Positions 4,231 to 31,303 of a stretch of 33,326 nucleotides of DNA are shown here, piece after piece. Positions within the stretch are counted from its first letter, which is position 1; the number at the start of each line of letters is the position of its first letter. The notes under the pieces were generated by a model, which ran no database searches, was not told where the DNA came from, and saw only the letters and a list, made by a program, of their open reading frames with translations. The translations under genes were made by a program, and so were the position numbers. Origin of the DNA: Candidatus Methanoperedens sp. (GTDB lineage Archaea > Halobacteriota > Methanosarcinia > Methanosarcinales > Methanoperedenaceae). The stretch lies in the NCBI GenBank assembly GCA_028717345.1, contig JAQUNZ010000024.1, positions 1 through 33,326 of the forward strand, read 5' to 3'.

Positions 4231-4258
4231 CTATGACAAAAATTAATAAGTGTATAAT

Positions 4259-7317: not shown

Positions 7318-7400
7318 AAATTGAATACGCTATACAAAGAGAGATTACTTTCACGGTGCTATGATAAAGGATATAATAATGGAACTATGAGGTTATTTTA

Positions 7401-8222
7401 ATGTTAACTAACAAAGAGAGGGCTATTCTTTATCTTTTGAACAATACGAATAAAATTTCAAAAATAAAGTTAGTGAAGCTCATGTTCTTGATGTCTGAAA
7501 AAATGAGCTTTTACAATTTCGTTCCATATAACTATGGGCCGTTCTCTTTTGAACTGTATCATGACTTATCCCACCTTGAAAAACAAGGATATATTTCAAT
7601 GGATGAAGAGTCTGTTTCTCTCATAAATAGGAACATTCCTCCACTGGAAAAAAATTCTGGATTCTTAATAAATGAACATTTCCAAAAATTTCTGAATTAT
7701 AATGATACTCAAATTCTGGATTATACATACTCAAAGCATCCCGAATATACAATTTTTAGCCATTATGATAAAAGAATGAGCTATTCGAGAGATTCAACCG
7801 GAATTGTTACCATAGGCTATGAAGGAAAATCCATTGATTCTTTCCTCTATGAACTTATTTTGAATAAGATTAATACGGTTTTGGATGTAAGAAAAAACGC
7901 ATACAGCATGAAATTTGGCTTTATGAAAAATAAACTGATCAATTATATGGGAAAAATCGGCATAGAATATTTGCACATGCCTGAACTTGGAATACCCTCT
8001 GATCAAAGAAAGAACCTCGATACATATCTGGATTACAAAGCCTTGTTCGCCGATTATGAGAAGGAACTTGCCGGGAAAACCACTTACATTGAAAGAATTA
8101 AGGAAATTGGTGCGGAGAAAAAAATCGCCTTGATGTGTTTTGAAAAGGACGCTAAATATTGTCACAGGGGAGTGATAGCAGAACGGTTGAGGAAAGACGG
8201 CATAGAGGTATGCAATATATGA
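7401..8222 (+). CDS. GPF-domain (YwgA/SocA-like) protein fused to DUF488
   Basis: A 273-residue two-domain protein behind a GAGGT ribosome-binding site. Residues about 1-125 form a helical domain with LVKLMFL, a YNYGPFSFELYHDLSHL segment and a terminal YSKHPEYTIFS segment; the same layout is found in the proteins at 9593 and 12910. It resembles the YwgA / SocA (DUF4065, 'Panacea') antitoxin-like domain, though that match is by eye. Residues about 134-273 are a DUF488 domain: TIGYEGKS, LDVRKNAYSMKFGFMK, PELGIPSD and CFEKDAKYCHRGVIAERL are its hallmarks. DUF488 has no firmly established activity; its conserved Cys/His motif suggests an enzyme. The fusion suggests that the first domain controls or neutralises the second. 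Confidence 0.75.
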   Translation: MLTNKERAILYLLNNTNKISKIKLVKLMFLMSEKMSFYNFVPYNYGPFSFELYHDLSHLEKQGYISMDEESVSLINRNIPPLEKNSGFLINEHFQKFLNYNDTQILDYTYSKHPEYTIFSHYDKRMSYSRDSTGIVTIGYEGKSIDSFLYELILNKINTVLDVRKNAYSMKFGFMKNKLINYMGKIGIEYLHMPELGIPSDQRKNLDTYLDYKALFADYEKELAGKTTYIERIKEIGAEKKIALMCFEKDAKYCHRGVIAERLRKDGIEVCNI

Positions 8223-8298
8223 CCTGGGAGAAGGAAATTGTCCCCGCTCTGAGTGGACAATTTGAAGAAAAATCAACAAAATGATTATAAAGTTATAC

Positions 8299-8306
8299 TT
8301 TATATA
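8299..8306 (+). promoter_or_regulatory. TATA box before the first TGT-like gene
   Basis: TTTATATA inside TTATACTTTATATA (8293-8306), an identical 14-nt core to that before hsdR. It sits in the only sizeable gap of this part of the island (8223-8372) and would start transcription near 8330, leaving a leader of about 40 nt with a GAGG ribosome-binding site before ATG 8373. The next genes follow without gaps, so it probably drives the TGT-like, GPF and PIN genes together. Confidence 0.5.
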
Positions 8307-8372
8307 TAATAAAAAAGGTTTAGACATATATAGATTTAATATTAGAAGCATGAGGTTTATTGTTGAGGAATT

Positions 8373-9596
8373 ATGACTTTTGTGGACATAGAGGAAGTTT
8401 CGAAGGAAAAAAACTCATTAGTACGTTCATGTAGAATAAAAATTAATGGAGGTACTATAATAACTCCTTCCAGAGCTGTTAGCGTCACTAAGTCCAAAAT
8501 TGAAGAACTAAAAGTATCCTCGACATTAATTAACAATCAATTCAGACCTTTTGGTGAGGTGTTTGTTCGCGTCCCATTGGATTTCTTAAGCAAAATAATA
8601 GATGATGATTATGAAGGTCAGAAATTTAGTTCAATGCTTGCAACTCGCTTGAGTCAATTGAAGGATGCAGGATTAGTCCCATATTTGATTCTTTCTTTGG
8701 TCGATAATGAAGATAATCTTTATAACAAGATGCCTCCACCACAAATTCTTGATCTTCTTTTTAATTTTATCTGGGGAACCCCGAACAATTCTATTATTGT
8801 ACCCCCTCTTATTGGAGTTCTCAACGAGGATAAAGAATATATCAAATACATTACTGCTTTGGAGAAAAGGCAGAAGGATCGTATTGATAAAAAGCCTCTG
8901 CCCATGATGGCAATTATTCCTCCTGTGTACCGATTAATTGCTCCAGAACTTCTGGAAAGGTATTGGAAAATTGGATGCCGCATCATTTCTTTCGATTTAG
9001 GGAATAAAAAATATAGCGCATTTGGTTATGTCATCGAAAAACTTCATTCTGAGTTGAATGTATTGAGTAAACGAGATAAAGAACCTTTTATTCTTCATGC
9101 CTTAAATTCAAAATTGAAAACTGGGAGAGGGGATACAAGTAGAATTAATGACTTATTGGGAACGGGGTTTGGATTTGATTCCTATGCCCCAAATCATGGA
9201 GGACGTCCAAAATGGATTCCTCCTCCAGCGCCTCCAACTGAATCCAACCATTTGTTTGATAGAAAAACTTATGGGTTTTTTTCGCTTTCGGATGTTATCT
9301 CCAATAAGACTATAGATCAAAAAGATGTGCTGAATACTTACGCATTTAAAAATGTTGAATTAGATTCAATTGTGGACCAAAAACCTGAAACAATAAAGCG
9401 AATCTGTTCAGCATATAATCTTGAAAAAACTATAGGAGAGATTCGGACTTTTCCAGAATTAATAAATAATGAAGAATTAATTAAATATTTTTCCAAAAAG
9501 GAACGTATTCAGGATGACCTGAAACTTATGAAAAACATTGCAGATAGAGGAATAATCTCTAAACAGCAAAAGAATCTGGATAAGTGGTTTGTATGA
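8373..9596 (+). CDS. TGT-like TIM-barrel protein, copy 1
   Basis: A 407-residue protein of a kind not firmly recognised, but with the layout of tRNA-guanine transglycosylases. The N-terminus has the R-x-K...G-x-I-x-TP pattern (TP at 31-32) that opens the TGT fold. Barrel strands then appear as IIPPV (181-185), ISFDLG (205-210), HALNSKLKTGRGD (242-254) and GFGFDS (265-270), the last aligning with the TGT segment that carries the nucleophilic Asp. The TGT zinc motif CxCx2C is missing. All these elements recur in the copy at 14041. It overlaps the next gene by ATGA, followed closely by a PIN nuclease. Base exchange on DNA or RNA (as by DpdA or TGT) is a guess, and the protein may instead only bind a nucleobase or nucleic acid. 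Confidence 0.6.
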   Translation: MTFVDIEEVSKEKNSLVRSCRIKINGGTIITPSRAVSVTKSKIEELKVSSTLINNQFRPFGEVFVRVPLDFLSKIIDDDYEGQKFSSMLATRLSQLKDAGLVPYLILSLVDNEDNLYNKMPPPQILDLLFNFIWGTPNNSIIVPPLIGVLNEDKEYIKYITALEKRQKDRIDKKPLPMMAIIPPVYRLIAPELLERYWKIGCRIISFDLGNKKYSAFGYVIEKLHSELNVLSKRDKEPFILHALNSKLKTGRGDTSRINDLLGTGFGFDSYAPNHGGRPKWIPPPAPPTESNHLFDRKTYGFFSLSDVISNKTIDQKDVLNTYAFKNVELDSIVDQKPETIKRICSAYNLEKTIGEIRTFPELINNEELIKYFSKKERIQDDLKLMKNIADRGIISKQQKNLDKWFV

Positions 9597-10075
9597 AAAT
9601 AAATGAAAATACTTTAACTTCAACTCAACTCGCGATAATTACGCTATTAAAAAGTAAAGATATCACTGGAATGGATTTTGCCCCGATTCCAGGTAATATT
9701 CATTTGGTAAAAGAGATTTTCGCAATAAAGAATACTGACATCGGAAAACAGCTGCTCGATGAATTGAACTTTGAGCCAGATAATTTTGGTCCTTTTGATG
9801 AGACAATTTTTGCTGCTCTGGATGACTTGAATAATGCAGGACTGGTGGAGTATGTTCAATCGAAAGGAGGTTCTAAGATCAAATTAACAAAGGAGGGTGA
9901 ACATTTCGCAGATACTATATGGAAAAAACTTCGCGAGGATGTTAAATCTATTATTACATATGTGAAATTAAATTTCAACCATATTTCTTCAGAAAAACTA
10001 CTCGATAGGATTTATTCAATTTACCCGGAAATGGCGAAATATTCCCTATCAAAAGTGGCCAAAAAATATCAATGA
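9593..10075 (+). CDS. GPF-domain (YwgA/SocA-like) protein, antitoxin candidate
   Basis: A 160-residue protein whose ATG (9593) overlaps the stop of the TGT-like gene as ATGA; a GTG at 9584 is less likely. It begins with a winged-helix-like region (LTSTQLAIITLL, LVKEIFAI), then FEPDNFGPFDETIFAALDDLNNAGL, a short wing (KIKLTKEG) and the C-terminal LLDRIYSIYPEMAKYS segment. The NFGPF...L..LNNAGL and Y..YPE elements are shared with the proteins at 7401 and 12910. It lies a few bases upstream of a PIN nuclease, the usual order of antitoxin then toxin, so it is probably the DNA-binding or neutralising partner. It has no UPF0175 tail, unlike its counterpart at 12910. Confidence 0.65.
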   Translation: MKINENTLTSTQLAIITLLKSKDITGMDFAPIPGNIHLVKEIFAIKNTDIGKQLLDELNFEPDNFGPFDETIFAALDDLNNAGLVEYVQSKGGSKIKLTKEGEHFADTIWKKLREDVKSIITYVKLNFNHISSEKLLDRIYSIYPEMAKYSLSKVAKKYQ

Positions 10076-10090
10076 TAGGAGATGCTATTT

Positions 10091-10564
10091 GTGGTGACTC
10101 TCTTTGGAGATACATGTTTCTTGATTGGATTAAAAGATAAGACTGATCAGCATCATACAGAGGCAATAAAAATCTGGAAGAGGTTACTAAGCACGAATGT
10201 AGTAAAAGGATTAAATCATGTCACCATTTCAGATTTTGTATTGATAGAGGTTTTTCAGGGTCTACAGAGCCATGCAGGATTTGAGACCGCTGCTGCTGTA
10301 TATAGTGAATTAACTGATAACTGTAGAGTTCAAAAGGTAACACTACCAATGGTGCAGCAGGCAATTAATCAAAAACTCGAACCTTATCGCAATCACAGAA
10401 CAAAACAACCACCAATAGGTCTTGTAGATGCAATATCTTTAGTCACAATGGACAAATTGAAAATTTCATGGATTCTGAGTTTTGATGAGGGTTTTGACCG
10501 AATTCCTTTAGTTAGAAGGATTCATAATGAAAATACGCTGCCATTTGATAAATCTGTTCGCTAA
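10091..10564 (+). CDS. PIN-domain ribonuclease, VapC-like toxin
   Basis: A 157-residue PIN-domain protein. The four acidic residues of the active site are visible as D7 (GDTCFLIGL), E53 (LIEVFQGLQ), D113 (GLVDAISL) and D132 (SFDEGFDRI). An AGGAG ribosome-binding site at 10077-10081 is well spaced for the GTG at 10091; the in-frame ATG at 10082 directly abuts it and is less likely. PIN toxins of the VapC family cleave tRNA or rRNA and are held inactive by a partner encoded just upstream, here the GPF-domain protein. The gene is part of the cassette that also contains the TGT-like protein, and all catalytic positions are intact. Confidence 0.8.
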   Translation: MVTLFGDTCFLIGLKDKTDQHHTEAIKIWKRLLSTNVVKGLNHVTISDFVLIEVFQGLQSHAGFETAAAVYSELTDNCRVQKVTLPMVQQAINQKLEPYRNHRTKQPPIGLVDAISLVTMDKLKISWILSFDEGFDRIPLVRRIHNENTLPFDKSVR

Positions 10565-10588
10565 GACTTTAAAAAAGTGGGAATTTTG

Positions 10589-11065
10589 ATGAACGTTTTA
10601 TTGTCAGTTAAACCAAAATATGCCGAAAAAATTGTCGAAGGAAAGAAAAAATACGAATTCAGACGAGCAATTTTTAAAAGACAGAATATAGAGAAAGTCT
10701 ATATTTATTCCAGTTCGCCGGTGAGTAAGATCGTTGCCACTTTCGAGATTGAAAAAATCTTAAAAGATACCCCGGAAAAAATATGGGCACTATGCCAAAA
10801 ATATGCCGGCATCTCAAAAAAGGATTTTTTCGACTATTTTAAAAATTCCGAACAGGCATTTGCAATTGAAATTGGGTATGTCAATAGTTTTCAAGAGCCA
10901 ATAGACCCATATCTTATTATTGAAGATTTCAAGCCCCCTCAGTCATTTTATTACTTGCCCAATGATTTTCTCCAGAACCAGTGGGACGTTGTTGATACTG
11001 AATTGGTCAAGCCCTCATTATCGATAGAATCAGTATCAGGAATTTCGTTCATTGGACATTTATGA
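10589..11065 (+). CDS. ASCH-domain protein
   Basis: A 158-residue protein whose N-terminus (LLSVKPKYAEKIVEGKKKYEFRR) is the hallmark of the ASCH / PUA-like fold, a beta-barrel that binds RNA or modified nucleotides. ATG 10589 is preferred over GTG 10577 because family members begin with M-x-V-L-L-S-x-K-P. ASCH proteins are often associated with toxin-antitoxin or nucleotide-modification genes, but few have a proven function. It follows the PIN toxin by 24 nt. A role in binding RNA, or a modified base, fits the TGT-like neighbour, but this is speculation. Confidence 0.7.
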   Translation: MNVLLSVKPKYAEKIVEGKKKYEFRRAIFKRQNIEKVYIYSSSPVSKIVATFEIEKILKDTPEKIWALCQKYAGISKKDFFDYFKNSEQAFAIEIGYVNSFQEPIDPYLIIEDFKPPQSFYYLPNDFLQNQWDVVDTELVKPSLSIESVSGISFIGHL

Positions 11066-11093
11066 ATATAGTTTATGCTAAATTATCAGGTCA

Positions 11094-11297
11094 GAAATCA
11101 CCGCAAAGTACGCAAAGATCGCAAAGCTCCACAATCCCTCCGACCGCATATCAAACGGCGCCGCCATCACGACGAAGAACACGGATGACACAGATTGCGC
11201 GGATTTTCACGGATCTGTGCGCATCAGCGTCATCCGCGCAATCCGTGTTCCATCGTAATTCATCTGCGTTTATCCGCGTTCATCTGCGGCTAATATT
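11094..11297. repeat. Intergenic palindromic / tandem repeat element
   Basis: A gene-free patch between the ASCH gene and hsdS made of repetitive DNA. It starts with three copies of a GCAAAG-type unit (11101-11127), continues with an inverted repeat whose arms are GAACACGGAT...TGCGCGGAT (from 11177) and ATCCGCGCAATCCGTGTTC (11232-11250), and ends with the tandem TCTGCG / TTATCCGCG / TTCATCTGCGG units (11262-11290). Similar non-coding families are scattered through many environmental genomes. An open frame across it (to 11331) is low-complexity and is not called as a gene. Confidence 0.6.
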
Positions 11298-11327
11298 TAG
11301 TAGAAAGACGCAGGAGGCGCTGGCAAG

Positions 11328-12815
11328 ATGAAAGAGGGCGCGCTGCATGAACTCCCAGGAGGCTGGGTCTGGACGAGGCTGGAAGACGCTTCTAAAGAAT
11401 TTATTGGAGGTGGAACACCTTCCCGACAGATTCCTGAATATTTTGGAGGAAATATTATTTGGCTTACACCAACTGAAGTGCCGAAAAATAAAATAGTAAT
11501 TTTAAAGGACTCAAAAGAAAAGATTACGGAATCAGGGTTGAAACATAGTTCAGCTAGAATAATTCCAAAAGATGCCGTGTTACTAACATCAAGAGCAAGT
11601 ATTGGTTATGTAGCTATAGCGGGTTGTGATGTCACTACAAACCAGGGTTTTGCTTCATTTGTTTGTTCTGACACAATTTACAATTTCTTTTTAGCCTACT
11701 GGCTGTGGGCAAACAAACGGTTGCTTGAATCGAATGCAACAGGAACTACATTCAAAGAAATCTCAAAATCAAAATTACGAGAATTTTATCTGCCCCTTCC
11801 TCCCCTCCCAGAACAACGAGCCATAGTCTCCAAAATCGAACAGCTTTTCAGCGATCTGGACAATGGAATAAATAACTTCAAAAAAGCACAGGCGCAGTTG
11901 AAGCTCTACCGCCAGTCAGTCTTAAAAGCCGCCTGCGAGGGCAAGCTCGTGCCAACCGAGGCTGAACTTGCGCGCGCGGAGGGGCGCGAGTACGAGGCGG
12001 CGGATGTGCTGCTGGGGCGCATATTGAAGGAAAAATGCGAAAAAAGCAATGGTGCGAAGTATAGAGAGCCTGTGGAGCCGGATACAAACGGGCTGTTGGG
12101 ACTTCCCGATGGGTGGGTATGGACAAAAGTTGGGGGGATTACAGAGAAAATTGAAAAGGTCTCACCGGAGGATGAACCTGAAGCGGAGTTTATATATCTG
12201 GATATTTCCTCTATTGATAACCGATATTTGAAAATCACTGAACCAAAGAAATATTTAGGTAAAGACGCCCCTTCAAGGGCAAAACAGAAAATGAAATGTG
12301 GCGATGTGTTGTTTTCAACAGTCCGAACTTATCTAAAAAATATAGCTCAAGTACCAAGCATATACGACGGACAAATTGCCTCAACTGGTTTTAGCATTCT
12401 TCGCCCTTCAATAGGAGTTAACGAAAATTTTCTGTTTTATTATGTTCAAACTGAAAAATTTCTAAATCCATTAACAGATATCCAGCGAGGCACGAGTTAT
12501 CCTGCTGTTCGTGACGGTGATGTTCGAGAGCAGTTTTTCCCTCTCCCTCCCCTCGCCGAGCAGCGCCGCATCGTTGCCGAGGTCGAGCGCCGCCTCTCAG
12601 TAAGCGACAAAATGGAAGAAACCATAGCAGAATCCCTCCTAAAAGCAGAATCCCTGCGCCAGAGCATCCTGAAAAAAGCCTTTGAGGGAAAACTGCTTAA
12701 CAAAAAAGAGCTGGAAAAAGCCCGTAATGCTTCTGATTGGGAGCCTGCCGGGAAACTGCTGGAGAGGATACGCCAGGAAAAAACACAGATAGGAGAAAAG
12801 AAGAGAAAAAGATAA
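11328..12815 (+). CDS. hsdS: Type I restriction-modification specificity subunit
   Basis: A 495-residue S subunit with two target-recognition domains. Each begins with GWVWT (LPGGWVWTRLED and LPDGWVWTKVGG) and each is followed by a conserved helix beginning PLPPLPEQRAIV or PLPPLAEQRRIV. TRD1 spans about residues 8-160, the first spacer helix about 160-215 (AQLKLYRQSVLKAACEGKLVP), TRD2 about 255-405 and the second helix about 405-460. It reads a bipartite DNA site and holds two HsdM subunits. An AGGAGG ribosome-binding site lies 10 nt before ATG 11328. The conserved helices are clearly richer in G and C than the TRDs, as expected when TRDs are exchanged between alleles. Its gene is flanked by toxin-antitoxin genes rather than by hsdM or hsdR. 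Confidence 0.95.
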   Translation: MKEGALHELPGGWVWTRLEDASKEFIGGGTPSRQIPEYFGGNIIWLTPTEVPKNKIVILKDSKEKITESGLKHSSARIIPKDAVLLTSRASIGYVAIAGCDVTTNQGFASFVCSDTIYNFFLAYWLWANKRLLESNATGTTFKEISKSKLREFYLPLPPLPEQRAIVSKIEQLFSDLDNGINNFKKAQAQLKLYRQSVLKAACEGKLVPTEAELARAEGREYEAADVLLGRILKEKCEKSNGAKYREPVEPDTNGLLGLPDGWVWTKVGGITEKIEKVSPEDEPEAEFIYLDISSIDNRYLKITEPKKYLGKDAPSRAKQKMKCGDVLFSTVRTYLKNIAQVPSIYDGQIASTGFSILRPSIGVNENFLFYYVQTEKFLNPLTDIQRGTSYPAVRDGDVREQFFPLPPLAEQRRIVAEVERRLSVSDKMEETIAESLLKAESLRQSILKKAFEGKLLNKKELEKARNASDWEPAGKLLERIRQEKTQIGEKKRKR

Positions 12816-12909
12816 AAATGTTACACAGCAATAATACTTTCGCGCCGCGCATACTAAAATGACATATATCAAAAAGAGCATTTGTTTGATTTACCGCAAG
12901 TGATTTCAA

Positions 12910-13497
12910 ATGGATATTAAAAAAAGGATACTGGAAAACCTGACTGAAACCCAAAAATATACCCTGTTACTCCTGAGTGCAAATAATTATGAACCGGTCA
13001 GAGGCAGACTCTGGTTTCAAAAGGAACTTTTTCTTTTAGCTAAAAACAGCGATGAACTTGCTGAGCAAACCGATTTTGAGGCTGATTTTATGGGTCCATA
13101 TAGTGAAAGCGCCGATGAGGAGCTTGAGCAGCTTGAATTTGCAAAAGTTGTTGAAAAAGAAGGAAATAAATTGAAACTTACCGGACTTGGCAGGGATATA
13201 GCGGAAATACTTGAAAAAAATTCTAGCGAAGAAGAAAAGGAAATGATTGAAGATTTTAAGTCTGAGCTTAATGATCTGACCGAAGATGAACTGCTTGGTT
13301 TCATATACTTTACTTATCCTGAAATGACCAGAGAATCTGTAAAGTTTGAAAAAATCAAGCCAAAAAGAATGAATATAGCATTAAGTTTGTATGCAAAAAG
13401 TAAAATCAGTCTCGGGAAAGCGCTTGAAATCGCTGGAATGAACATTGATACTTTTATTAAAGAAGCCAAACTGAAAGGAATTCAAATATATACTTAG
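12910..13497 (+). CDS. GPF-domain protein with UPF0175-like tail, antitoxin candidate
   Basis: A 195-residue protein with the same N-terminal domain as 7401 and 9593 (FQKELFLL, FEADFMGPYSESADEELEQLEFAKVV, KLKLTGLG, and LLGFIYFTYPEMTRESV). The last 42 residues (about 154-195; IALSLYAKSKISLGKALEIAG) form a UPF0175-like helix-turn-helix antitoxin tail. UPF0175 proteins commonly pair with DUF3368 PIN toxins, and such a toxin gene starts 10 nt after this one ends. The gene has no strong ribosome-binding site; a TATA-like CATATATCA lies near 12860-12870. It therefore joins the GPF domain to a known antitoxin module, supporting an antitoxin role for the whole GPF-domain family in this island. Confidence 0.75.
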   Translation: MDIKKRILENLTETQKYTLLLLSANNYEPVRGRLWFQKELFLLAKNSDELAEQTDFEADFMGPYSESADEELEQLEFAKVVEKEGNKLKLTGLGRDIAEILEKNSSEEEKEMIEDFKSELNDLTEDELLGFIYFTYPEMTRESVKFEKIKPKRMNIALSLYAKSKISLGKALEIAGMNIDTFIKEAKLKGIQIYT

Positions 13498-13507
13498 GTG
13501 CTTCTTT

Positions 13508-13993
13508 ATGAAAATCCTGGATTCGTCCCCTGTCATAGCTTTTTACTCAGAACTTGATAAGCTGGATTTGCTACATAAATTTCTAAAGTTAGGTCATGAA
13601 CTCAGGATTCCAAAAGGTGTTTTCGGTGAATTAGAGAACGGAAGAACCTCAGAAAAATTAAAATCAAGCATATCTGAAGGAAAAATCAAAATTCTGGAAG
13701 ACCTGCCATCCGAAGAGACTTTACACTTCAAAAACCGACATCCTTACCTTGGGATTGGAGAAATTGAAGTAATCCTGTGGTGGCTAAAACTCAAATCAGA
13801 TGCTAATAAACACTATTGCATCATTGACGATAAAAAAGCCAGAAAAGTCGCTGGAAAATATCAGGTTGCGTTTACGGGAACAATAGGTTTAATAGATTTA
13901 TTAGAGAAAAAACAGGCTATTACTCAGGATGAGCGCACAGAATATATTAATAAACTTTCAGTTTCAGGATTCAGGATAAAGGGGATATCATGA
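13508..13993 (+). CDS. DUF3368 PIN-like toxin
   Basis: A 161-residue protein of the DUF3368 branch of PIN nucleases. The family motifs are LDSSPVIAF (Asp5), FGELENG (Glu41), LGIGEIEVI (Glu85) and CIIDDKKAR (Asp107-Asp108), followed by FTGTIGLIDLL. These acidic residues form the expected metal-binding site, so it is probably an active ribonuclease. It follows the UPF0175-tailed protein by 10 nt, the standard pair. The TGT-like protein comes 47 nt downstream. This cassette thus has the order antitoxin, PIN, TGT-like, while the first cassette has TGT-like, antitoxin, PIN, and the two PIN proteins belong to different branches. Confidence 0.85.
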   Translation: MKILDSSPVIAFYSELDKLDLLHKFLKLGHELRIPKGVFGELENGRTSEKLKSSISEGKIKILEDLPSEETLHFKNRHPYLGIGEIEVILWWLKLKSDANKHYCIIDDKKARKVAGKYQVAFTGTIGLIDLLEKKQAITQDERTEYINKLSVSGFRIKGIS

Positions 13994-14040
13994 AATCTAT
14001 CAGTTAGTTTTTTAATCATATAATATAAATATAACAGTGA

Positions 14041-15219
14041 ATGTCAAAACATATCGAGTTCAAGAAGGTGTGTCCTGATGATGACACGTTATATATCACC
14101 AAAGAACTCCGTGTTAATGGGAAAAAATTAACAACGCCAATAAAATCGCTGGGGGTAAGCTCAAAGCTGGTATTTAATGATAAAATAAAAGGAGTAAATG
14201 AGTTTTATAAAAGATTCTCTTTAGATGAAAACTTAAAGAAAAATTCAGTTTATAGTGTTCTGAGTTCTCCAGAGAAATTGAGCGAGCTTAATTATAAATT
14301 TAACTCCCTGGTGAAAAAAACAGATACAGACAAGGAAATTAATCTCTGTTTTATTGAATACGATGACATGAAATACCCGGAAAAGAAACCACTGGAATTT
14401 ATTCTGGATACAGCATATGAATATTCTGATATTACTCCCTTACCGATTATATCCAATGTTGGCAAGCGTATTGATTCTGAAGAGAAATTCGAAAAATACA
14501 AAAAATTTTTGGAAGAATCTCTTGAAATTATCGATACCTTGAATCATAAACCTATAATGGGAATCGTACCGCCTGTTCAATTCTATATTAAAGAAATTGT
14601 TGAGTTATATGCGAAAAATGGTATCGACGCTTTTGTATTTGATTTTGATGGGAAAACACCATTAAGTATGCATCAGACTATTCGAAGTTTTATGCGTTCT
14701 TTAAGGGAACAGGATTTGTTAGAGAATAGTTTCATCCATTCAATTAATACAAATCAAGGACGCTTCAATAAAGAAGTTAATGTTGTTGGTGCAAAGGATA
14801 TTCTATCCTTCGGTCTTGGTTTTGACAGTATGGGTGAAAGACATAAACCTTTAAAGGGTCCGAAAGAATTTTTTGAAAAATTGAAAAATCGGGAAGATAA
14901 CAAACTCAGACTATTTAATAAAGATGATTATGGTTATTACAGATTGGGTATTAGCGAACTGGAGGAAATTTATCCCGCAGATTCGATTATTAAAAAAGAA
15001 TCATTTGTTAATGAAAAGTCAGATTTAAGAAACCTCCAGAAAAATTTCAATATGGAGCAGATAGGACTTGAAACTATTCGATTAAGGGATATTATTACTA
15101 ATCAGGAACCAAAGGAGTATCTATCTCATAAAACACAGGTCAAAAAAGAAGATTTCAAGAAGATTATAAAAATGAAAAAAGAAATTTCAAGAAAACATAG
15201 TCAATTGACATTATTTTAG
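14041..15219 (+). CDS. TGT-like TIM-barrel protein, copy 2
   Basis: A 392-residue paralogue of the protein at 8373, strongly diverged. Shared elements include the N-terminal NGKKLTTP motif (TP at 32-33), IVPPV (175-179), FVFDFDGK (198-205), FIHSINTNQGR (231-241) and FGLGFDSMGERH (257-268). The order and spacing match the barrel strands of tRNA-guanine transglycosylases, with FDS aligned to the FDC of the catalytic Asp, but the CxCx2C zinc site is absent. Between 13994 and 14040 an AT-rich stretch (ATAATATAAATATA) may provide a promoter with a leaderless start; no ribosome-binding site is visible. The gene is intact, and its repeated association with PIN and GPF-domain genes suggests a real functional link. 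Confidence 0.6.
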   Translation: MSKHIEFKKVCPDDDTLYITKELRVNGKKLTTPIKSLGVSSKLVFNDKIKGVNEFYKRFSLDENLKKNSVYSVLSSPEKLSELNYKFNSLVKKTDTDKEINLCFIEYDDMKYPEKKPLEFILDTAYEYSDITPLPIISNVGKRIDSEEKFEKYKKFLEESLEIIDTLNHKPIMGIVPPVQFYIKEIVELYAKNGIDAFVFDFDGKTPLSMHQTIRSFMRSLREQDLLENSFIHSINTNQGRFNKEVNVVGAKDILSFGLGFDSMGERHKPLKGPKEFFEKLKNREDNKLRLFNKDDYGYYRLGISELEEIYPADSIIKKESFVNEKSDLRNLQKNFNMEQIGLETIRLRDIITNQEPKEYLSHKTQVKKEDFKKIIKMKKEISRKHSQLTLF

Positions 15220-15261
15220 CTTAAGATTTTAAGAATATTAATTAATATTAGGGTGTAAACG

Positions 15262-15594
15262 ATGTCTGAAAGTAAATTGGAGGAAGCGATTAAATTTCTC
15301 GGAAGATGCCTGAAAGAAAAAGGATTGAAGGTTTCAAAGATAATTTTATTTGGATCACAGGTCAAAGGAAAAACCACTGAGGAAAGCGATGTTGATATTC
15401 TTATTATCTCAGAAGATTTTAGCGGCAAAGACATTTTTGAAAGGGCGAGATTAACCAAATACGCTGAAATAATGACTCTTAAGAAATTCATGATGCCTCT
15501 TGATATTGTTACCCTGACATCGGAAGAGTTTGAGCGCGGAACTTCCCTCGTTGTTGAATATGCTAAAAGGGGGAAAGTAATGTATGCCGCATAA
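15262..15594 (+). CDS. MNT-type minimal nucleotidyltransferase
   Basis: A 110-residue protein with GSQVKGKTTEESDVDILII: Gly31-Ser32 and the metal-binding pair Asp43 and Asp45 of minimal nucleotidyltransferases. A GGGTG ribosome-binding site lies just upstream of ATG 15262. As with the MNT gene at 7021, no HEPN partner is adjacent. The C-terminal half is longer than in the first copy and the two are only similar in the catalytic region. It closes the second cassette, so the two MNT genes bracket the toxin-antitoxin-like material in the island. Confidence 0.8.
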   Translation: MSESKLEEAIKFLGRCLKEKGLKVSKIILFGSQVKGKTTEESDVDILIISEDFSGKDIFERARLTKYAEIMTLKKFMMPLDIVTLTSEEFERGTSLVVEYAKRGKVMYAA

Positions 15595-15636
15595 TCACTG
15601 TTTTCGAGACTTTATATTATCTTCTGGTACGAAAAA

Positions 15637-15701
15637 AACCACAGAGCGCACAGAGGACACAGAGAATAATTACTCTGTGATCTCTGTGTCCTCTGTGGTT
15701 G
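15637..15701. repeat. Inverted repeat before hsdM
   Basis: Arms around ACAGAGGACACAGAGA (15650-15665) and TCTCTGTGTCCTCTGT (15681-15696), extending to CCACAGAG / CTCTGTGG at the outer ends, form a near-perfect stem. This CACAGAG family is a widespread non-coding intergenic repeat in environmental bacteria and archaea. Here it separates the second cassette from hsdM and may act as a terminator-like hairpin in RNA. Confidence 0.75.
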
Positions 15702-15741
15702 ATTATCATTGCTTGGATCATTTATCTGGGAAAATTAAAAA

Positions 15742-17229
15742 ATGACCAACACAAGTGCCATAATATCAAAAGTATGGAGTTACGCACACGTACTCCGGGA
15801 TGCTGGTGTCGGCTACGGCGACTATCTGGAACAGTTGACATATCTGCTTTTTCTGAAAATGGCAGATGAATATTCAAAATCACCGTATGACCGTAAACTT
15901 CCGATCCCGGAAAAATATAAATGGGGAAGTCTGGTATCGAAAAAAGGCGCTGACCTGGAATCACATTATACAGAACTTCTCCGTGAATTAAGCCAGGCAA
16001 GGGGCATCCTTGGACAGATATTTACAAAATCCCAGAACAAGATACAGGATCCGGCTATGCTATCTCGCATCATAGGCATGATAGATAATGAGAATTGGAG
16101 CATGATGGGTACTGATGTTAAAGGGAAAATCTATGAAGGACTTCTTGAAAAAAATGCAGAGGATGTGAAAAGCGGAGCTGGTCAGTATTTCACTCCCCGT
16201 TCCCTTATCATGGCAATGGTTGAATGCATTCATCCTGAACCTGAAAAAACGATATGCGATCCTGCATGTGGAACAGGTGGCTTCTTCCTTGCATCTTATG
16301 ATTTCTTAAGCAATCCCAGGAATTACCGTTTGAATAAAGAGCAGAAGGAATTTCTCAAAGACAAAACCTTTTCGGGAAATGAGATCGTTGCAGGCGCAAG
16401 AAGAATGTGCCTTATGAATATGTTCCTTCATAACATTGGCGAAATTGATGGTGAATCGTATATATCACCAACGGATTCCCTTATATCCGTTCCAAGCGAC
16501 CGTTATGATTATGTTTTGACTAATCCACCTTTTGGTAAAAAAAGCAGCATGTCCTTTACAAATGAAGAAGGCGAACAGGAAAAAGAAGACCTTGTTTATA
16601 ATCGCCAGGATTTCTGGGCAACCAGTTCTAACAAGCAGTTGAACTTTTTGCAGCATATCCATACTATCCTGAAATCAGATGGATGCGCCGCCGTTGTTCT
16701 GCCTGACAATGTACTGTTTGAAGGAGGAGCCGGTGAGACTGTCCGTAAAAACCTGCTTGCATCAACAGATCTGCATACAATTTTAAGACTTCCGACAGGT
16801 ATTTTTTACAAACAGGGCGTAAAAGCAAATGTTCTCTTTTTTGAGAATAAGCCCGCAAGCAAAACCCCCTGGACAAAAGAGGTATGGATATATGATTTTC
16901 GTACCAATATTCATTTTACATTGAAAGAGAACACGATGAAATTCGAGGATTTAAAGGATTTTATCAAATGTTACAATCCTGAAAACAGGCATAAAAGAAA
17001 AGAAACATGGTCACAGGACAATCCGAATGGGCGGTGGAGAAAAATCTCATATGAGGAAATAGTTTCAAGAGATAAAACAAACCTTGATATTTCCTGGGTA
17101 AAAGATGAAAGCCTTGCTGATCTGGATAACTTGCCTGACCCGGATATACTGGCAAATGAGATTATTGAAAATGTAGAAGCCGGACTTGAGGGATTTAAAG
17201 AAATAGTCGAAACGATAAATGGCGAATGA
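15742..17229 (+). CDS. hsdM: Type I restriction-modification DNA methyltransferase
   Basis: A 495-residue N6-adenine methyltransferase subunit. The N-terminal HsdM helical domain (YGDYLEQLTYLLFLKMADE) is followed by the SAM-binding motif DPACGTGGF at about 173-181 and the catalytic NPPF at 261-264; GAGQYFTPRSLI just before motif I is also characteristic. The C-terminal part is intact (NLDISWVKDESLADLDNL). Together with HsdS it would methylate the host DNA, and with HsdR it restricts foreign DNA. There is no clear ribosome-binding site before ATG 15742; an inverted repeat separates it from the cassette upstream, so it may have its own promoter. Confidence 0.95.
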   Translation: MTNTSAIISKVWSYAHVLRDAGVGYGDYLEQLTYLLFLKMADEYSKSPYDRKLPIPEKYKWGSLVSKKGADLESHYTELLRELSQARGILGQIFTKSQNKIQDPAMLSRIIGMIDNENWSMMGTDVKGKIYEGLLEKNAEDVKSGAGQYFTPRSLIMAMVECIHPEPEKTICDPACGTGGFFLASYDFLSNPRNYRLNKEQKEFLKDKTFSGNEIVAGARRMCLMNMFLHNIGEIDGESYISPTDSLISVPSDRYDYVLTNPPFGKKSSMSFTNEEGEQEKEDLVYNRQDFWATSSNKQLNFLQHIHTILKSDGCAAVVLPDNVLFEGGAGETVRKNLLASTDLHTILRLPTGIFYKQGVKANVLFFENKPASKTPWTKEVWIYDFRTNIHFTLKENTMKFEDLKDFIKCYNPENRHKRKETWSQDNPNGRWRKISYEEIVSRDKTNLDISWVKDESLADLDNLPDPDILANEIIENVEAGLEGFKEIVETINGE

Positions 17230-18450: not shown

Positions 18451-19815
18451 CTACCTCCGTGACTTATAGAACCGTACTGTTATATAAAAGGTAAAGATTG
18501 CCATAACAAAAGAGAAATCGGGGGTTTCTTTTGCGGATGGCGCATACAGTGTGTAATTTGCTGAGGTCATCTCAACTACTGGCGGTCTTACCTTACCCTT
18601 CCCGAACAACAGGTCTGAAAGTTCCTGCGAAGCAGAGACATAATTAAGCCGTGCTGAAAGGATGACAGGTCTTTTTGCAGTTTTGGGGATCGTAAAATTA
18701 TAGTATTCTATGGAATATCCCTTTGGAGGTATCCTGTTATCAGAAAGTATCTTCTGTGCAAACCACACCTTTTCGGTGTGTTTGCCACTGGCATCGCCAA
18801 ATACAGTATGGTATTTTACAGCATCATGGTCGATATACCCATTCTCGTCCACGCCGCCTGACCTGAAGATCGCTTTGCCCGAAGCATCCCGGACTTCGAC
18901 ATCAAGCCATATCAGTCGCGCTTCGGTCAGCCCGGTTGGGAGTTTATGCCCTGCCCCTGTGTTTGTAACCTTTAATCTAAGAGTCACGTTGTCATTAACA
19001 ACTTCGATAGCCTCGATCTCAAGTGTTGCAGCAGATTTAAGCCTCTCCTGCGCAAGCTTTTCATGCTCTGGCGAACCGAGAAGTCCCGGAAGCATAGCAT
19101 TACCTCCTACAAAGTAATGAGTGAAAATATTTTCTCTAATGGGTCCGCCCACAGCCGCTCTTCCAGGATTTGGCACGAACCTGGTCACACCGGGGGTCAT
19201 GTGGCAGTCCTGGCAAGATGTAGTTTCGTTGTATGGCCCCTCTTTCCATTCAGTATAAGTGTTCTCAAGAACAAGACCATTGAAAGGATGCACTACGTTA
19301 TGGCATATTCCGCAGAAATCTGATTTTGTATAAAGATCTGAATACACAGTCGAATGGAATGTAGAATAGTTGGAATCATTTAAAGGTCCTCTTTTTATTC
19401 TGCCTGGTGAAGAAATGAAAGCCCCGTTCCCGATGCCACTTGTTGCGTTGACAGTATGGCAGAAGTCACAGCTTACTCCCTTTTCTGATATCTCGCTGAC
19501 GTTATAGTTATCGGCTGATGGAATTTTTCCTGAAAGGTAGTCGATGGGTGCATGGCATTTTGTGCAGAATGCATCAAAAGAGCTATTCGTTTCCCTGCTT
19601 GCAATAACGAAAAGCTTCTCGTACACAGGGTCTTTATGCGCCATAGAATGCATCGAGCCGTTCCACTGCGCATAGATCTCTTCATGGCATCCCCCGCATA
19701 CTTCAGGATGCACATAATCCGAGGTTTCAATTCCATTATCATACACCATTCCAGAAAGGGCTAATGTCATAGAAAAAATTGTGGCAAGAATCACCAAGCT
19801 CCTCATTCCAACCAT
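18451..19815 (-). CDS. Pentaheme c-type cytochrome, membrane-anchored
   Basis: A 454-residue secreted protein with five CxxCH heme-binding motifs at residues 40-44 (CGGCH), 84-88 (CTKCH), 116-120 (CDFCH), 168-172 (CGICH) and 201-205 (CQDCH). The N-terminus is a signal peptide or anchor (residues about 4-22), and the C-terminus ends in a hydrophobic segment and the basic RFYKSRR, so it is likely held to the outside of the membrane. The half after residue 240 has no heme and forms a beta-rich domain ([22 protein letters not shown]). Distribution of hemes resembles cytochrome c554-family proteins. It would carry electrons across or outside the membrane. It is followed directly by rubredoxin. The start could be the second Met (codon 4). 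Confidence 0.88.
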
Positions 19816-26579: not shown

Positions 26580-26939
26580 ATGACAAACTTGCTTTATGTC
26601 CAGACAAGCGGAATTGACACACCAGAACGCCTGTATTCGCCTTTTATCCTTGCGCAGACCGCAAAAGCGATGGGTATAGAGGCAACGATATATTTTCTCG
26701 GGACCGGGATCACTGTCGTAAAAAAAGGCAATGCTGAAAAGATCAAGATCGGGCAATTCCCATCTCTCAAAGATGTAATGGAGCAGACCATAAAAGCGGG
26801 AGTAAAGCTCATGGTATGCGAGCAAAGCTGCCAGCTTATTAATCTTGGAAGGGGCGAATTTGTCCCGGCAGCTGAGATAGTTGGCGCAGCAACGCTCAAC
26901 GATCTTGTGCTTGAGGCAGATGGAACAATGTGGTTCTAA
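26580..26939 (+). CDS. DsrE/DsrF-like sulfur-relay protein
   Basis: A 119-residue alpha/beta protein of the DsrE/DsrF/TusD type. The first strand (NLLYVQTSG), helix (SPFILAQTAKAMG) and second strand (EATIYFLGTGI) form the family core; VCEQSCQLI places cysteines at 80 and 84, the position of the sulfur-carrying cysteine in the family. A GGAGG ribosome-binding site precedes the start. It lies 54 nt upstream of the cysteine desulfurase homologue and then the scaffold, so it probably carries persulfide or receives sulfur in this cassette. Its direct sulfur donor is not known. Confidence 0.82.
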   Translation: MTNLLYVQTSGIDTPERLYSPFILAQTAKAMGIEATIYFLGTGITVVKKGNAEKIKIGQFPSLKDVMEQTIKAGVKLMVCEQSCQLINLGRGEFVPAAEIVGAATLNDLVLEADGTMWF

Positions 26940-26993: not shown

Positions 26994-28157
26994 ATGAGAA
27001 AGGTTTACATGGATCACGGTTCTGCTTCACCTGTTGATGCACGTGTGCTTGAAGCCATAATGCCGTATTTTGATATGGATGTCGGGAATCCCTCATCCCT
27101 CCATTCGGCAGGACGGAAAGCAAAAAGAGAGCTTGAAGCGGCGCGCACAGCAGTTGCAAAGTTGATCGGCGCACCCTCTTCGAACTCCATCATTTTCACA
27201 TCATGCGCAACAGAATCGAACAACCTTGCGCTTCGGGGTGCAGCATTGCGGTATAAGGATAAGGGAAACCACATCATCACAACTTCGATCGAGCATATGT
27301 CAGTGATGAATACACTGAAAGACCTGCAGAGAAGCGGGTTTGAGGTCACTTATATCCCTGTGGATAAAGACGGGCTTGTAGATGCCGAACGAATAAAGAA
27401 AGCAATAACAGATAAGACTATCCTCATTTCTGTGATGTACGCAAATGGCGAGATCGGGACAATCCAGCCCATACGCGAGATCGGTGCAATAGCATCGGAT
27501 AAAAAGATAATGTTCCATGTTGATGGGACAGCAGCAGTTGGAAAAGTGCCTGTCAATGTGGAAGAAGAACGTATTGACCTTCTTACCATTTCCTCCAATG
27601 ATATGAACGGACCCAAAGGCGCAGGCGCTCTATATATTAAGCAGGGCGTAAGGCTGATACCTTTCATGCTGGGAGGAGGGCAGGAATTCGGGATGAGAAG
27701 CGGTTCTGAGAACATCCCCGGCATAGTCGGGATGGGAAAAGCTGCGGATATCGCTGGAAAAGAGATGATAACTGAAGGCGCGCGTCTCATCAAAATGCGC
27801 GACAGGCTTATAGATAATATCCTGAAGCTTGAATATACGTATCTTACAGGTCACAGGACAAAACGCCTTCCGAACAATGCAAGTTTCAGGTTCAGCTTCA
27901 TAGAAGGAGAAAGTATCATACTTCAGCTCAACGATATGGGGATCACTGCAAGTACAGGCTCGGCGTGCTCTTCAAAGACCCTTGAACCGTCGCATGTACT
28001 CATTGCTACCGGACTCAGGCACGAAGAGGCTCATGGCTCGCTTCTGCTCACTCTTGGAAGATCAAATTCAGAAGAAGATGTAGATTATGTGATAAAGAGC
28101 GTCCCTGAGATCGTGACTCGTCTCAGGGCATTATCGCCCCTTTATCCAGCAAAGTAG
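26994..28157 (+). CDS. iscS: IscS/NifS-type cysteine desulfurase homologue without PLP lysine
   Basis: A 387-residue fold-type I PLP enzyme with the usual NifS/IscS layout. The stretch CATESNNLALRG (71-82), the HVDG strand (175-178, normally HVDAVQ), NGPKGAGALY and the mobile-loop cysteine GSACSS (Cys325) are all present. The PLP-binding lysine, normally within S-x-H-K, is replaced: the segment reads ISSNDMNGPKG with Asp at 203. Archaeoglobus fulgidus IscS has the same Asp and binds PLP non-covalently with little or no desulfurase activity, while still forming an IscS-IscU cluster complex. So this protein probably acts as a cluster ligand or sulfide-fed assembler. It is followed by the IscU fusion after 8 nt. 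Confidence 0.9.
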   Translation: MRKVYMDHGSASPVDARVLEAIMPYFDMDVGNPSSLHSAGRKAKRELEAARTAVAKLIGAPSSNSIIFTSCATESNNLALRGAALRYKDKGNHIITTSIEHMSVMNTLKDLQRSGFEVTYIPVDKDGLVDAERIKKAITDKTILISVMYANGEIGTIQPIREIGAIASDKKIMFHVDGTAAVGKVPVNVEEERIDLLTISSNDMNGPKGAGALYIKQGVRLIPFMLGGGQEFGMRSGSENIPGIVGMGKAADIAGKEMITEGARLIKMRDRLIDNILKLEYTYLTGHRTKRLPNNASFRFSFIEGESIILQLNDMGITASTGSACSSKTLEPSHVLIATGLRHEEAHGSLLLTLGRSNSEEDVDYVIKSVPEIVTRLRALSPLYPAK

Positions 28158-28165
28158 GTGAAAAC

Positions 28166-29500
28166 ATGGCAGAACAATTCGAATATTCAGAGAAGGTGAT
28201 GGATCATTTCAGGAACCCGAGGAACGTCGGGGAGGTTAAAAACGCCGACGGCATCGGAAGAGTAGGGAATCCTGTTTGCGGCGACCTGATGGAGATCCAG
28301 ATAAAAGTCGAGAACAATATATTGAAAGACGTGAAGTTCAAGACTTTCGGCTGCGGCTCAGCCATTGCCACAAGCAGCATGATTACTGAAATGGCAATTG
28401 GTAAGACGCTTGAGGAAGCACTCAAGATAACGCGCGGGGACGTGGCGGCTGAACTTGATGGTCTTCCTCCCATCAAGATGCACTGCTCCAACCTTGCGGC
28501 TGATGCTCTCCATGCAGCCATAAAAGATTACATGGCAAAAAAGGAAGAGAAGGCAAAAATAGAGGCAGAAAAATATGATTTTGATGTGATCGTGGTCGGC
28601 GGAGGTCCTGGCGGGCTGACGACAGGAATACTGTGCGCCTACAGGGGACTTAAAACCGCAATTTTCGAGGCTTCAAGCTGGGGAGGGATACTCTCGTGGC
28701 TGTGCCCGACAAAAATGATAGAGAACTTTCCGGGACTGAGTGAAAGAACAACATGCAAAGACCTTGTTGATACATGGGTGAGCGAGGCTGGGAAGCTCAA
28801 AGTGGAATTAAAGAAGGAGCGTGTAAATGAGATCACGAAGGATCTGAAAGTCATCGCAGAAAGCGGTGAATACAGAAGCAAGATCATAGTCCTGGCAACA
28901 GGGAGTTCTCCGTCAATAGCAGGCGTAAAAGGCGAGGAGAAGTTCAGCAAGGATGACAGGGGCGTCTATTATTATGTGACAAACCCCGCGAAATTCGCGG
29001 GGAAGCGGGTTCTCATCGTGGGCGGGGGGAGCTCTGCCGTGGATGCTGCGCTTTCCATAATCGAGACAGCAGACCTGATAACCATAGCACACAGACATAA
29101 TGAACTGCGCGCGGTAGGACATAAGATAGAGCGCCTTAAGGCAAGCGATAAGATCAAGATCCTGTATGATACCGAACTTGTAGAAATAACAGGCGCAGAA
29201 AAGGTAGAGAAAGCCATCATGCGGGATTTGAAAGAAGATGAGAACATCCAGCAGGTTGTGGATTCAGTTATACTTGCTGTTGGCATGACGCCGAATACCG
29301 AGATATTCAAGAAGCTCGGCATAGAGATGGATGAGAAGGGGTATATAAAGACTGACAAGACCCAGAAGACGAATATCAATGGTATCTACGCTGTGGGAGA
29401 CATTGCTTCCGATCTTGCGTTAGTTGTGATGGCTGTGGCGCATGGAGCTACGGTGGCGCATAATGCGTATATAGAACTCAGGAAGCCTTATTGGAGATGA
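28166..29500 (+). CDS. IscU scaffold fused to thioredoxin-reductase-like flavoprotein
   Basis: A 444-residue two-domain protein. Residues about 1-125 are an IscU/NifU scaffold: GNPVCGD (Cys38, Asp40), FGCGSAIA (Cys63) and MHCSNLAADAL (Cys107), the three cluster-holding cysteines plus the Asp. Residues about 138-444 are a thioredoxin-reductase-like domain with VVGGGPGG (FAD, 143-150), VGGGSSAV (NAD(P)H, 285-292) and YAVGDIAS at the end. The redox CxxC is missing (the segment reads YYYVTNPAKFAGK), so it is more like a ferredoxin/flavin reductase of the YumC type. A flavin reductase covalently joined to a scaffold could give electrons for cluster formation. It is directly coupled to the lysine-less IscS. 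Confidence 0.93.
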   Translation: MAEQFEYSEKVMDHFRNPRNVGEVKNADGIGRVGNPVCGDLMEIQIKVENNILKDVKFKTFGCGSAIATSSMITEMAIGKTLEEALKITRGDVAAELDGLPPIKMHCSNLAADALHAAIKDYMAKKEEKAKIEAEKYDFDVIVVGGGPGGLTTGILCAYRGLKTAIFEASSWGGILSWLCPTKMIENFPGLSERTTCKDLVDTWVSEAGKLKVELKKERVNEITKDLKVIAESGEYRSKIIVLATGSSPSIAGVKGEEKFSKDDRGVYYYVTNPAKFAGKRVLIVGGGSSAVDAALSIIETADLITIAHRHNELRAVGHKIERLKASDKIKILYDTELVEITGAEKVEKAIMRDLKEDENIQQVVDSVILAVGMTPNTEIFKKLGIEMDEKGYIKTDKTQKTNINGIYAVGDIASDLALVVMAVAHGATVAHNAYIELRKPYWR

Positions 29501-30343: not shown

Positions 30344-31303
30344 ATGCCAATAGCAACCGAGTTCTTAAAATATTGTACTCAATATCTTGATGATAATATG
30401 GGGGGAATATCTGAAGGTGTCATTAATAAGATACAGTCAAGAAAAAATTTGAATGACACGTCAAATATTAACGATGTTATGGAATTTATCGGTTTGCTTG
30501 AAAACAGCATTGGCGTAATCTCAGGTAAGAACAATGCAATTACAATATGCAAACATCTAAGGGAGAAAACTATGGAGCTTAACCTTGCCAATGAAACCGA
30601 TGAATTACACAATACCCTCAGGAACGAGGCATCTGATATCAACATCAATGAATTTTTAGCAAGGATAAATGCAGTTAATTTTCTCAACGATCTACGACCG
30701 ATAGATAAAACTGAGAAACAAACATTATCTGAGATGCATGCGGATATGGATGGATTTTTATCAAAAAATGTTATTCCGGCAGAAAGTGAAATCACAGAAT
30801 TTTCAGAAGAACTGGCTTTGAAATATCATGTTGATGTGCCAAAAATAAAGAAAGATATCATTGAAAAAGTTAAAGTTAATTTCAAGAATGAGATCAACAA
30901 GAAAGCGATTAAAACTGAAATAAACAAATTCCTGTTTAGATACCCTGTGCCCTCAAAAGAAGATATAGATGATTTTGTGAATTATTTCAATTTATTAAAA
31001 TTCACTTATTCTGAAGCACAAATTAGAGAGCAAATTGAGACTGAAAGACTTTACCTAAAATTCCAGGACCCGGTTTTACCTGAGAAAATCTCTGAATTTG
31101 ACCAGTTAATAGACCAGATAAAAGGATACAGGGATAAGAACGACATCATCAGAATACTGGAAGAGAAAGAAATCAGTTATCTTATTAAAGATGAGACCCG
31201 GGCATCTGATAAATTTTTAATTGAGTTAGTTGAACAAATAACCCTGTTTGAAAAAGATCCAGTGGGAGGCGCTTATCTTAATCACCTGGTCAGGGAAAAT
31301 TAG
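30344..31303 (+). CDS. Helical protein of unknown function, KaiC partner
   Basis: A 319-residue, strongly charged, almost fully helical protein with no signal peptide or membrane helix and no recognised motif. A weak internal repeat is suggested by INKFLFRYPVPSKEDIDDFVNYF, NEFLARINAVNFL and SEFSEELALKYHV segments. It starts 9 nt after the KaiC-like gene and uses a GGA-rich ribosome-binding site, so the two are co-transcribed. Small KaiC-like ATPases usually work with a dedicated partner, and this gene is the obvious candidate; the function is not known. The nrdJ frame opens before its stop. Confidence 0.7.
   Translation: MPIATEFLKYCTQYLDDNMGGISEGVINKIQSRKNLNDTSNINDVMEFIGLLENSIGVISGKNNAITICKHLREKTMELNLANETDELHNTLRNEASDININEFLARINAVNFLNDLRPIDKTEKQTLSEMHADMDGFLSKNVIPAESEITEFSEELALKYHVDVPKIKKDIIEKVKVNFKNEINKKAIKTEINKFLFRYPVPSKEDIDDFVNYFNLLKFTYSEAQIREQIETERLYLKFQDPVLPEKISEFDQLIDQIKGYRDKNDIIRILEEKEISYLIKDETRASDKFLIELVEQITLFEKDPVGGAYLNHLVREN

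Follow-up and report, generated by a model that had tools for sequence, protein, structure and literature searches.

Lysine-less IscS homologue encoded between a DsrE-like gene and an IscU-flavoprotein fusion in Methanoperedens, and a candidate sulfur route that does not start from cysteine

The DNA analysed here (the window) is a stretch of 33,326 nucleotides from the methane-oxidising archaeon Candidatus Methanoperedens. Its genome of 2.54 Mb is distributed over 128 contigs, is 95.9% complete and belongs to an order sample of 185 genomes. Three genes of the window lie together on the same strand and encode a DsrE-like protein, an IscS homologue and an IscU-flavoprotein fusion, with a gap of 54 bases between the first and the second gene and of 8 bases between the second and the third. 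Proteins with Asp at the position of the pyridoxal phosphate (PLP) lysine are called D-type below, and those with Lys are called K-type or Lys-type. The features of the module are as follows.

26580..26939, + strand: DsrE-like sulfur-carrier protein, 119 amino acids (PF02635, 62.6 bits against a cut-off of 22.7); Cys80 codon at 26817-26819
26994..28157, + strand: D-type IscS (pseudo-desulfurase), 387 amino acids, ATG start; a single clade in trees
27531..27533, + strand: Ala180 codon, replacing Gln183 (E. coli numbering), which binds PLP; 132 of 140 distinct D-type proteins have Ala here and 44 of 45 K-type proteins have Gln
27600..27602, + strand: Asp203 codon, replacing the PLP lysine (Lys206 in E. 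coli IscS); Asp in 140 of 140 distinct D-clade proteins
27966..27968, + strand: Cys325 codon, the retained mobile-loop cysteine; Cys in 140 of 140 distinct D-type proteins
28044..28046, + strand: Leu351 codon, replacing Arg354 (E. coli numbering), which binds the cysteine carboxylate; Arg in 45 of 45 K-type proteins
28166..29500, + strand: IscU (residues 1 to about 127) fused to a flavoprotein domain of thioredoxin reductase fold (about 139 to 435); PF01592 166 bits, PF07992 140 bits, NifU_clost 207 against a cut-off of 187.9, AF2 and Foldseek
28277..28486, + strand: IscU cluster-site residues Cys38, Asp40, Cys63, His106 and Cys107, all present
28703..28705, + strand: Cys180 codon, where B. 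subtilis FNR has the flavin-stacking Tyr50; all 49 of 49 distinct full-length domains that are fused have Cys here, and the unfused relative L249 and 3lzw have Tyr
28973..28984, + strand: Tyr-Val-Thr-Asn (270-273), at the position of the thioredoxin reductase CxxC

The first-pass annotation of this DNA had reported that the S-x-H-K segment of the IscS homologue reads SSND, that the catalytic Cys325 is retained, and that a DsrE-like gene and an IscU fusion adjoin it, and all of this was confirmed. SSND occupies residues 200-203, which places Asp203 in the lysine column, where no Schiff base is possible, and Cys325 lies within SACSS. The closest solved structures are those of A. fulgidus IscS (4eb5, 4eb7 and 4hvk), which have the same Asn-Asp pair; in the alignment with 4eb5 (E value 1.5e-139) the two pairs coincide, and 4r5f is the 4eb5 chain with Lys at the Asp position (D199K). 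The window protein has the mobile-loop cysteine (C325), His104 (H101) and Asp180 (D177) of type I IscS/NifS proteins, but it has no match to their Schiff-base lysine (D203) or to Gln183 and Arg354 (A180 and L351), and its scores lie below the NCBIfam equivalog cut-offs (FeS_nifS, 500.2 of 530.75; IscS, 438.5 of 643.2). His104, Asp180, Gln183, Lys206 and Cys328 are given as required in E. coli IscS, and Arg354 as binding the substrate carboxylate, in a part of PMC9978102. Judged from its residues, the window IscS is in all probability unable to use cysteine in the manner of IscS. A D203K change alone should not restore activity, because neither the Gln that binds PLP nor the Arg that binds the substrate is present.

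Asp at the lysine column was present in 140 distinct relatives, and Asp203 is therefore neither an error nor a chance event. These 140 proteins were drawn from 173 rows, which included the same loci fetched twice; the count excludes rows with internal stops, those that cover fewer than 330 query residues and those that are closest to SufS. Most rows were found by means of a DNA motif that itself contains Asn-Asp, so that the invariance at residues 202 and 203 is partly due to selection; 36 of the distinct proteins were found by protein or family searches, independently of the motif, and all 36 read Asn-Asp. Scanning the named genomes with the motif returned at least 119 stretches, 117 of which carried an IscS homologue with Asp and two of which (L159 and L161) had no IscS match. 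The archaea with D-type IscS among the matches listed include Bathyarchaeota, Lokiarchaeota and other Asgard archaea, Thermoplasmata, Methanomassiliicoccales, Hadesarchaea, Methanocellales, Methanothrix, Geoglobus, Methanophagales and Syntrophoarchaeum, and the bacteria, likewise among the matches listed, include Deltaproteobacteria, Zixibacteria, Cloacimonadota, Actinomycetota and WOR-3. The motif occurred in 61 of 227 genomes of the phylum that contains a Lokiarchaeia genome (none with a reversed control pattern), and a stricter motif occurred in 11 of 392 genomes of a spread sample of the window's own phylum. Within the Methanosarcinales, D-type IscS seemed a promising marker for anaerobic methane oxidisers, but this use was ruled out by the wide scan.

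When the five diagnostic columns were masked, a tree of 44 D-type and 29 K-type proteins separated the two types by one branch with a support of 100/100, a value that functional divergence may raise since other pocket columns, among them 351 and 11, stayed in the alignment. The split between the two types required a single change in 100% of 200 bootstrap trees, compared with a mean of about 23 after shuffling. The window protein is found on the same side of this branch as the Archaeoglobus-type proteins (the Archaeoglobus-like row being L082 from genome G262, as A. fulgidus itself was clustered away) and apart from the Lys-type. This tree excludes two identical copies and L243, a distant row with a long branch, and L268, with Pro at the lysine site, was placed in neither group; in a quick tree that contained one very long branch, the branch between the two types had a support of 71. 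In a correction to the first-pass annotation, the window IscS belongs to one ancient clade that extends over many archaeal and some bacterial phyla, and an isolated lysine loss in one genome is ruled out by the tree.

The substitution of the lysine does not stand alone, because Lys, Gln and Arg were all missing in 137 of the 140 distinct D-type proteins and in none of the 45 K-type proteins. Thr73, His101, Asp177 and Cys325, on the other hand, were retained in all 140. The loss of three catalytic residues would be in keeping with a decaying, functionless paralogue; however, the median dN/dS among 27 Methanoperedens copies was 0.076 (44 of 351 pairs with usable dS), Cys325 and the pocket are invariant, and the operon is conserved across phyla. 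There is next to no likelihood left for decay, and a pseudogene reading is refuted by the conservation. On the evidence of the alignments, the D-type is a fixed alternative site, arguing for repurposing of the protein.

One could also envisage that the D-type protein still carries out PLP chemistry, with PLP or PMP that is bound non-covalently, in which case Asp203 and Asn202 would replace Lys and His and the substrate might be a different one. Thr73, His101, Asp177, Asn202 and Asp203 are invariant in the 140 distinct proteins (the last two partly by selection), PLP is shown in A. fulgidus IscS according to the 4EB5 figure legend in PMC9769115, and very slow activity of E. coli K206A is discussed in a section of PMC9978102. 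However, 137 of the 140 proteins have also lost the Gln that contacts the phenolate oxygen of PLP and the Arg that holds the carboxylate of the substrate, and we regard retained PLP chemistry as improbable.

The protein encoded upstream belongs to the DsrE/DsrF family by its PF02635 score and by its fold; an AF2 model (pLDDT 96.7) had 3mc3, DsrEFH and TusBCD as its best matches in the PDB. It shares with these DsrE/TusD carriers the fold and an invariant cysteine, but differs from them in forming a subfamily of its own that is tied to D-type IscS (44 bits against a cut-off of 210 for DsrE2). Cys80 and Ser83 were invariant in all 94 distinct upstream DsrE homologues, and Cys84 of the window protein was not conserved (39 of 122). 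The gene was located directly upstream, that is, within 800 bases and on the same strand, in 115 of the 150 D-type loci with enough flanking DNA but in none of the 44 K-type loci. Counting distinct proteins gave 88 of 121 versus 0 of 44, and counting 72% representatives gave 23 of 37 versus 0 of 30.

The association was also apparent at the level of genomes. A profile search of 184 Methanosarcinales genomes, with D-type genomes taken from the matches listed, found 45 genomes with both D-type IscS and DsrE, 3 with D-type IscS only, 2 with DsrE only and 134 with neither; the number of D-type genomes is a lower bound, as a few low-scoring copies may be absent. Strong DsrE matches were thus present in 47 genomes, 45 of them among the at least 48 with a recognised D-type IscS. 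Both DsrE-only genomes do have D-type IscS, cut at a contig end. As for the genomes with D-type IscS only, the contig begins in or just before iscS in two of them (G052 and G048), and the third (G055), with only 674 bases of contig upstream of iscS, is an exception that is also missing iscU after iscS. Elsewhere the linkage is looser: 33 of the 121 distinct D-type loci had no DsrE directly upstream, and the 33 genomes with such an IscS carried the same DsrE at another place in 10 cases (E value below 1e-50), weaker matches in 10 and no match to the DsrE of the module in 13.

IscU is encoded directly downstream of D-type IscS in 108 of 122 distinct loci, and in the window it has the NifU_N domain and the Cys/Asp/Cys/His/Cys site of an IscU/NifU scaffold. 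The flavoprotein was in the same open reading frame as IscU in 77 of the 83 D-type loci with a flavoprotein match. The fold model of the window fusion (pLDDT 79) matched thioredoxin reductase and FNR, and both dinucleotide motifs are present, GGGPGG and GGGSSA, for FAD and NAD(P)H. That the fused domain is a thioredoxin reductase was ruled out by YVTN in place of CxxC and by a TRX_reduct score of 219 against a cut-off of 343 bits; CxxC at this position was absent from all fused domains with a complete segment, and CATC was found only in three unfused flavoprotein neighbours.

The fusion partner in the window looks FNR-like. It shares the fold, the FAD and NAD(P)H motifs and the absence of CxxC with the FNRs of thioredoxin reductase type (B. 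subtilis FNR, 3lzw), but it has Cys instead of the flavin-stacking Tyr50 and is fused to IscU. Among the unfused relatives, the nearest one (L249) is most similar to these FNRs and shares their LYPxK segment, at which the fused proteins read LC(P/S). A flavin-facing cysteine is the device of single-cysteine flavin disulfide/persulfide reductases. The Tyr of LYPxK corresponds to Tyr50 of B. subtilis FNR, as numbered by counting along the alignment, and this residue stacks on the flavin at 3.3 Å according to a passage in PMC10526003. The NADPH-binding arginines are retained in most Methanoperedens copies, but not in ANME-2-type fusions. The fusion itself is not universal, being absent in A. fulgidus and many others. 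In addition, 16 loci (L112, L187, L190, L115 and 12 more) encode shortened IscU fusions, mostly of about 270 amino acids, with the second half of the flavoprotein and without the FAD domain or GxGxxG; they are from Lokiarchaeota, Actinomycetota, WOR-3, Stahlbacteria and a Bathyarchaeota bin, and the shortened version appears to be either a remnant or a binding domain.

The parallel with A. fulgidus drawn in the first-pass annotation turned out to be exact, as both iscS genes of this organism have the same Asp and the same dsrE and iscU neighbours in the order dsrE-iscS-iscU, one dsrE copy being without its 5' end. By eye, the L297 protein is the 4eb5 chain but for one residue. The two organisms differ in that the IscU of A. 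fulgidus is unfused and in that a Lys-type IscS is present in the window genome but not in that of A. fulgidus. The Asp change, the inactivity as a desulfurase and a model in which the IscS cysteine serves as a ligand are cited in a section of PMC7585200, and Cys321 of A. fulgidus IscS is described as a cluster ligand in part of PMC9769115; the portions of these two articles that treat the protein together with IscU do not mention the dsrE neighbour. In the open-licence literature, we found no paper whose evident subject is the DsrE link, the D-type clade or the IscU-flavoprotein fusion, and the terms IscU, IscS and DsrE are all absent from the ANME genome paper PMC9012536. The Asp substitution was known from A. 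fulgidus IscS, and what is new is its setting.

Free sulfide could be the direct source of sulfur, as in the SMS system of M. jannaschii, which uses sulfide (PMC12192291). D-type IscS would then be a structural partner that contributes a Cys ligand, as in the A. fulgidus model, and DsrE would scavenge or sense sulfane sulfur or have some other role. The reported inactivity of A. fulgidus IscS (a section of PMC7585200), the ligation of a [2Fe-2S] cluster by its cysteine (part of PMC9769115) and the retention of Cys325 in all 140 distinct D-type proteins agree with this. Such a source, however, leaves unexplained why D-type IscS is tracked nearly gene for gene by a DsrE with an invariant Cys80, and it gives no reason for the fusion of IscU to a flavoprotein reductase, because sulfide needs no reduction. 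We therefore consider direct use of sulfide rather unlikely.

Cysteine-fed assembly has not been replaced in the window genome, since a canonical pair of Lys-type IscS (SAHK) and stand-alone IscU is encoded side by side on another contig (C36); a SufS-like protein is encoded on a third (C61). No protein with SUFBD_core (SufB/SmsB) was found in the window genome at its completeness of 95.9%, and 14 of 14 control genomes were positive in the same search. Among the matches listed for the Methanosarcinales, full-length SmsB/SufB was present in 12 of 50 D-type genomes compared with 110 of 134 others, a difference that shared ancestry may explain, and full-length SmsB was missing in 23 of the 28 genomes of the genus Methanoperedens with D-type IscS (again among the matches listed). 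Methanoperedens may thus rely for the most part on assembly of the ISC type. Sulfur from cysteine could still arrive at DsrE, because a Lys-type desulfurase motif was present in 40 of 53 sampled D-type genomes. A complete absence of Lys-type desulfurases from D-type genomes holds for a minority only: no Lys-type IscS or SufS was seen among the strong PF00266 matches of A. fulgidus, a second genome of its genus, Geoglobus, Hadesarchaea and two other MAGs, where gaps in the MAGs may hide some.

Given this coexistence, D-type IscS might combine with the Lys-type IscS of its own cell into mixed dimers and modulate it. The motif counts just given, for the window genome and the sampled D-type genomes, would allow this, and in two loci (L045 and L130) a canonical Lys-type IscS, accompanied by IscU in L045, adjoins the D-type module. 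Yet A. fulgidus and several other genomes have the D-type only, and D-type IscS comes with an iscU and a dsrE of its own. We judge mixed dimers to be very improbable.

A source of sulfur other than cysteine is the best reading for the window module, and in this respect the first-pass annotation stands, as it does for the excluded Schiff base and for A. fulgidus; it has to be corrected as regards an isolated change, the effect of D203K, the nature of the fusion partner and the replacement of cysteine-fed assembly. The module can be compared with the MIS system (MisS/MisU), which is described as having a cysteine desulfurase (PMC12192291). Both have an IscS/IscU homologue pair without carriers, but the window module is without the desulfurase residues and adds DsrE and a flavoprotein. 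We see about an even chance that the module represents an old and widespread branch of ISC/MIS without a desulfurase, in which sulfane sulfur on DsrE would be passed to Cys325 and IscU and reduced by the flavoprotein. By analogy with Cys321 of A. fulgidus, D-type IscS would very likely act as a protein partner that docks IscU and presents Cys325 to the nascent cluster. A putative persulfide on Cys80 of DsrE would bring in the sulfur, which would come from sulfide-derived sulfane sulfur and not from cysteine, and would be handed to Cys325, to the IscU cysteines or to both. Electrons that reduce the persulfide to sulfide would be given by the fused FAD/NAD(P)H domain through the flavin-facing Cys180. 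We infer the roles of DsrE as donor and of the flavoprotein as electron source from the gene linkage, the invariance of the cysteines and the established requirement for electrons; cluster assembly on E. coli IscS/IscU in vitro can be driven by NADPH, FNR and ferredoxin alone, as stated in part of PMC4547094.

A more far-reaching proposal, which we put forward tentatively, is that the module amounts to a widespread, cysteine-free anaerobic machine for Fe-S assembly, in which DsrE, in place of a desulfurase, would load a lysine-less IscS/IscU pair with sulfane sulfur, the scaffold of methanotrophic archaea would carry its own single-cysteine flavin persulfide reductase, and the fixed pocket of Asp203 and Asn202 would be a new active or binding site and not a relic. 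The module would be a candidate for a third sulfur route beside MIS, with its desulfurase, and SMS, with sulfide, and it points to particular residues, namely C80 of DsrE, C325 of IscS and C180 of the fusion. It would also offer a reason for the conservation of the biochemically inactive IscS of A. fulgidus.

Two further proteins have lost the lysine. In L299 (770-3230), the lysine site reads SAHT (Lys to Thr), the Cys is kept and the identity is 45%; a gene of the DsrE_2 family (128.8 bits) lies 167 bases upstream, and the IscU encoded downstream is joined to a FeS_assembly_P domain. By elimination among the three IscS-like proteins of its genome (G148), we take L299 to be, most likely, IscS1 of M. 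acetivorans. That protein is noted as lysine-less in a passage of PMC7585200. L299 has lost the lysine independently and has DsrE and IscU neighbours of a similar kind, and M. acetivorans IscS1 as a member of the D-type clade was not supported (SAHT, 45% identity, absent from the tree). L268, a bacterial IscS-like protein, has Asn-Pro at the lysine site, a retained Cys and IscU upstream, with no DsrE neighbour within the stretch examined.

Outside the module, a 319-amino-acid protein without a Pfam or NCBIfam match is encoded at 30344-31303, after a KaiC-like ATPase. Type I restriction-modification genes for HsdR, HsdS and HsdM extend over 13 kb (4250-17229) with PIN-domain and UPF0175 genes interspersed, and a multihaem protein of the cytochrome c554/c7 type is encoded at 18451-19815 on the minus strand, adjoining a radical SAM gene.
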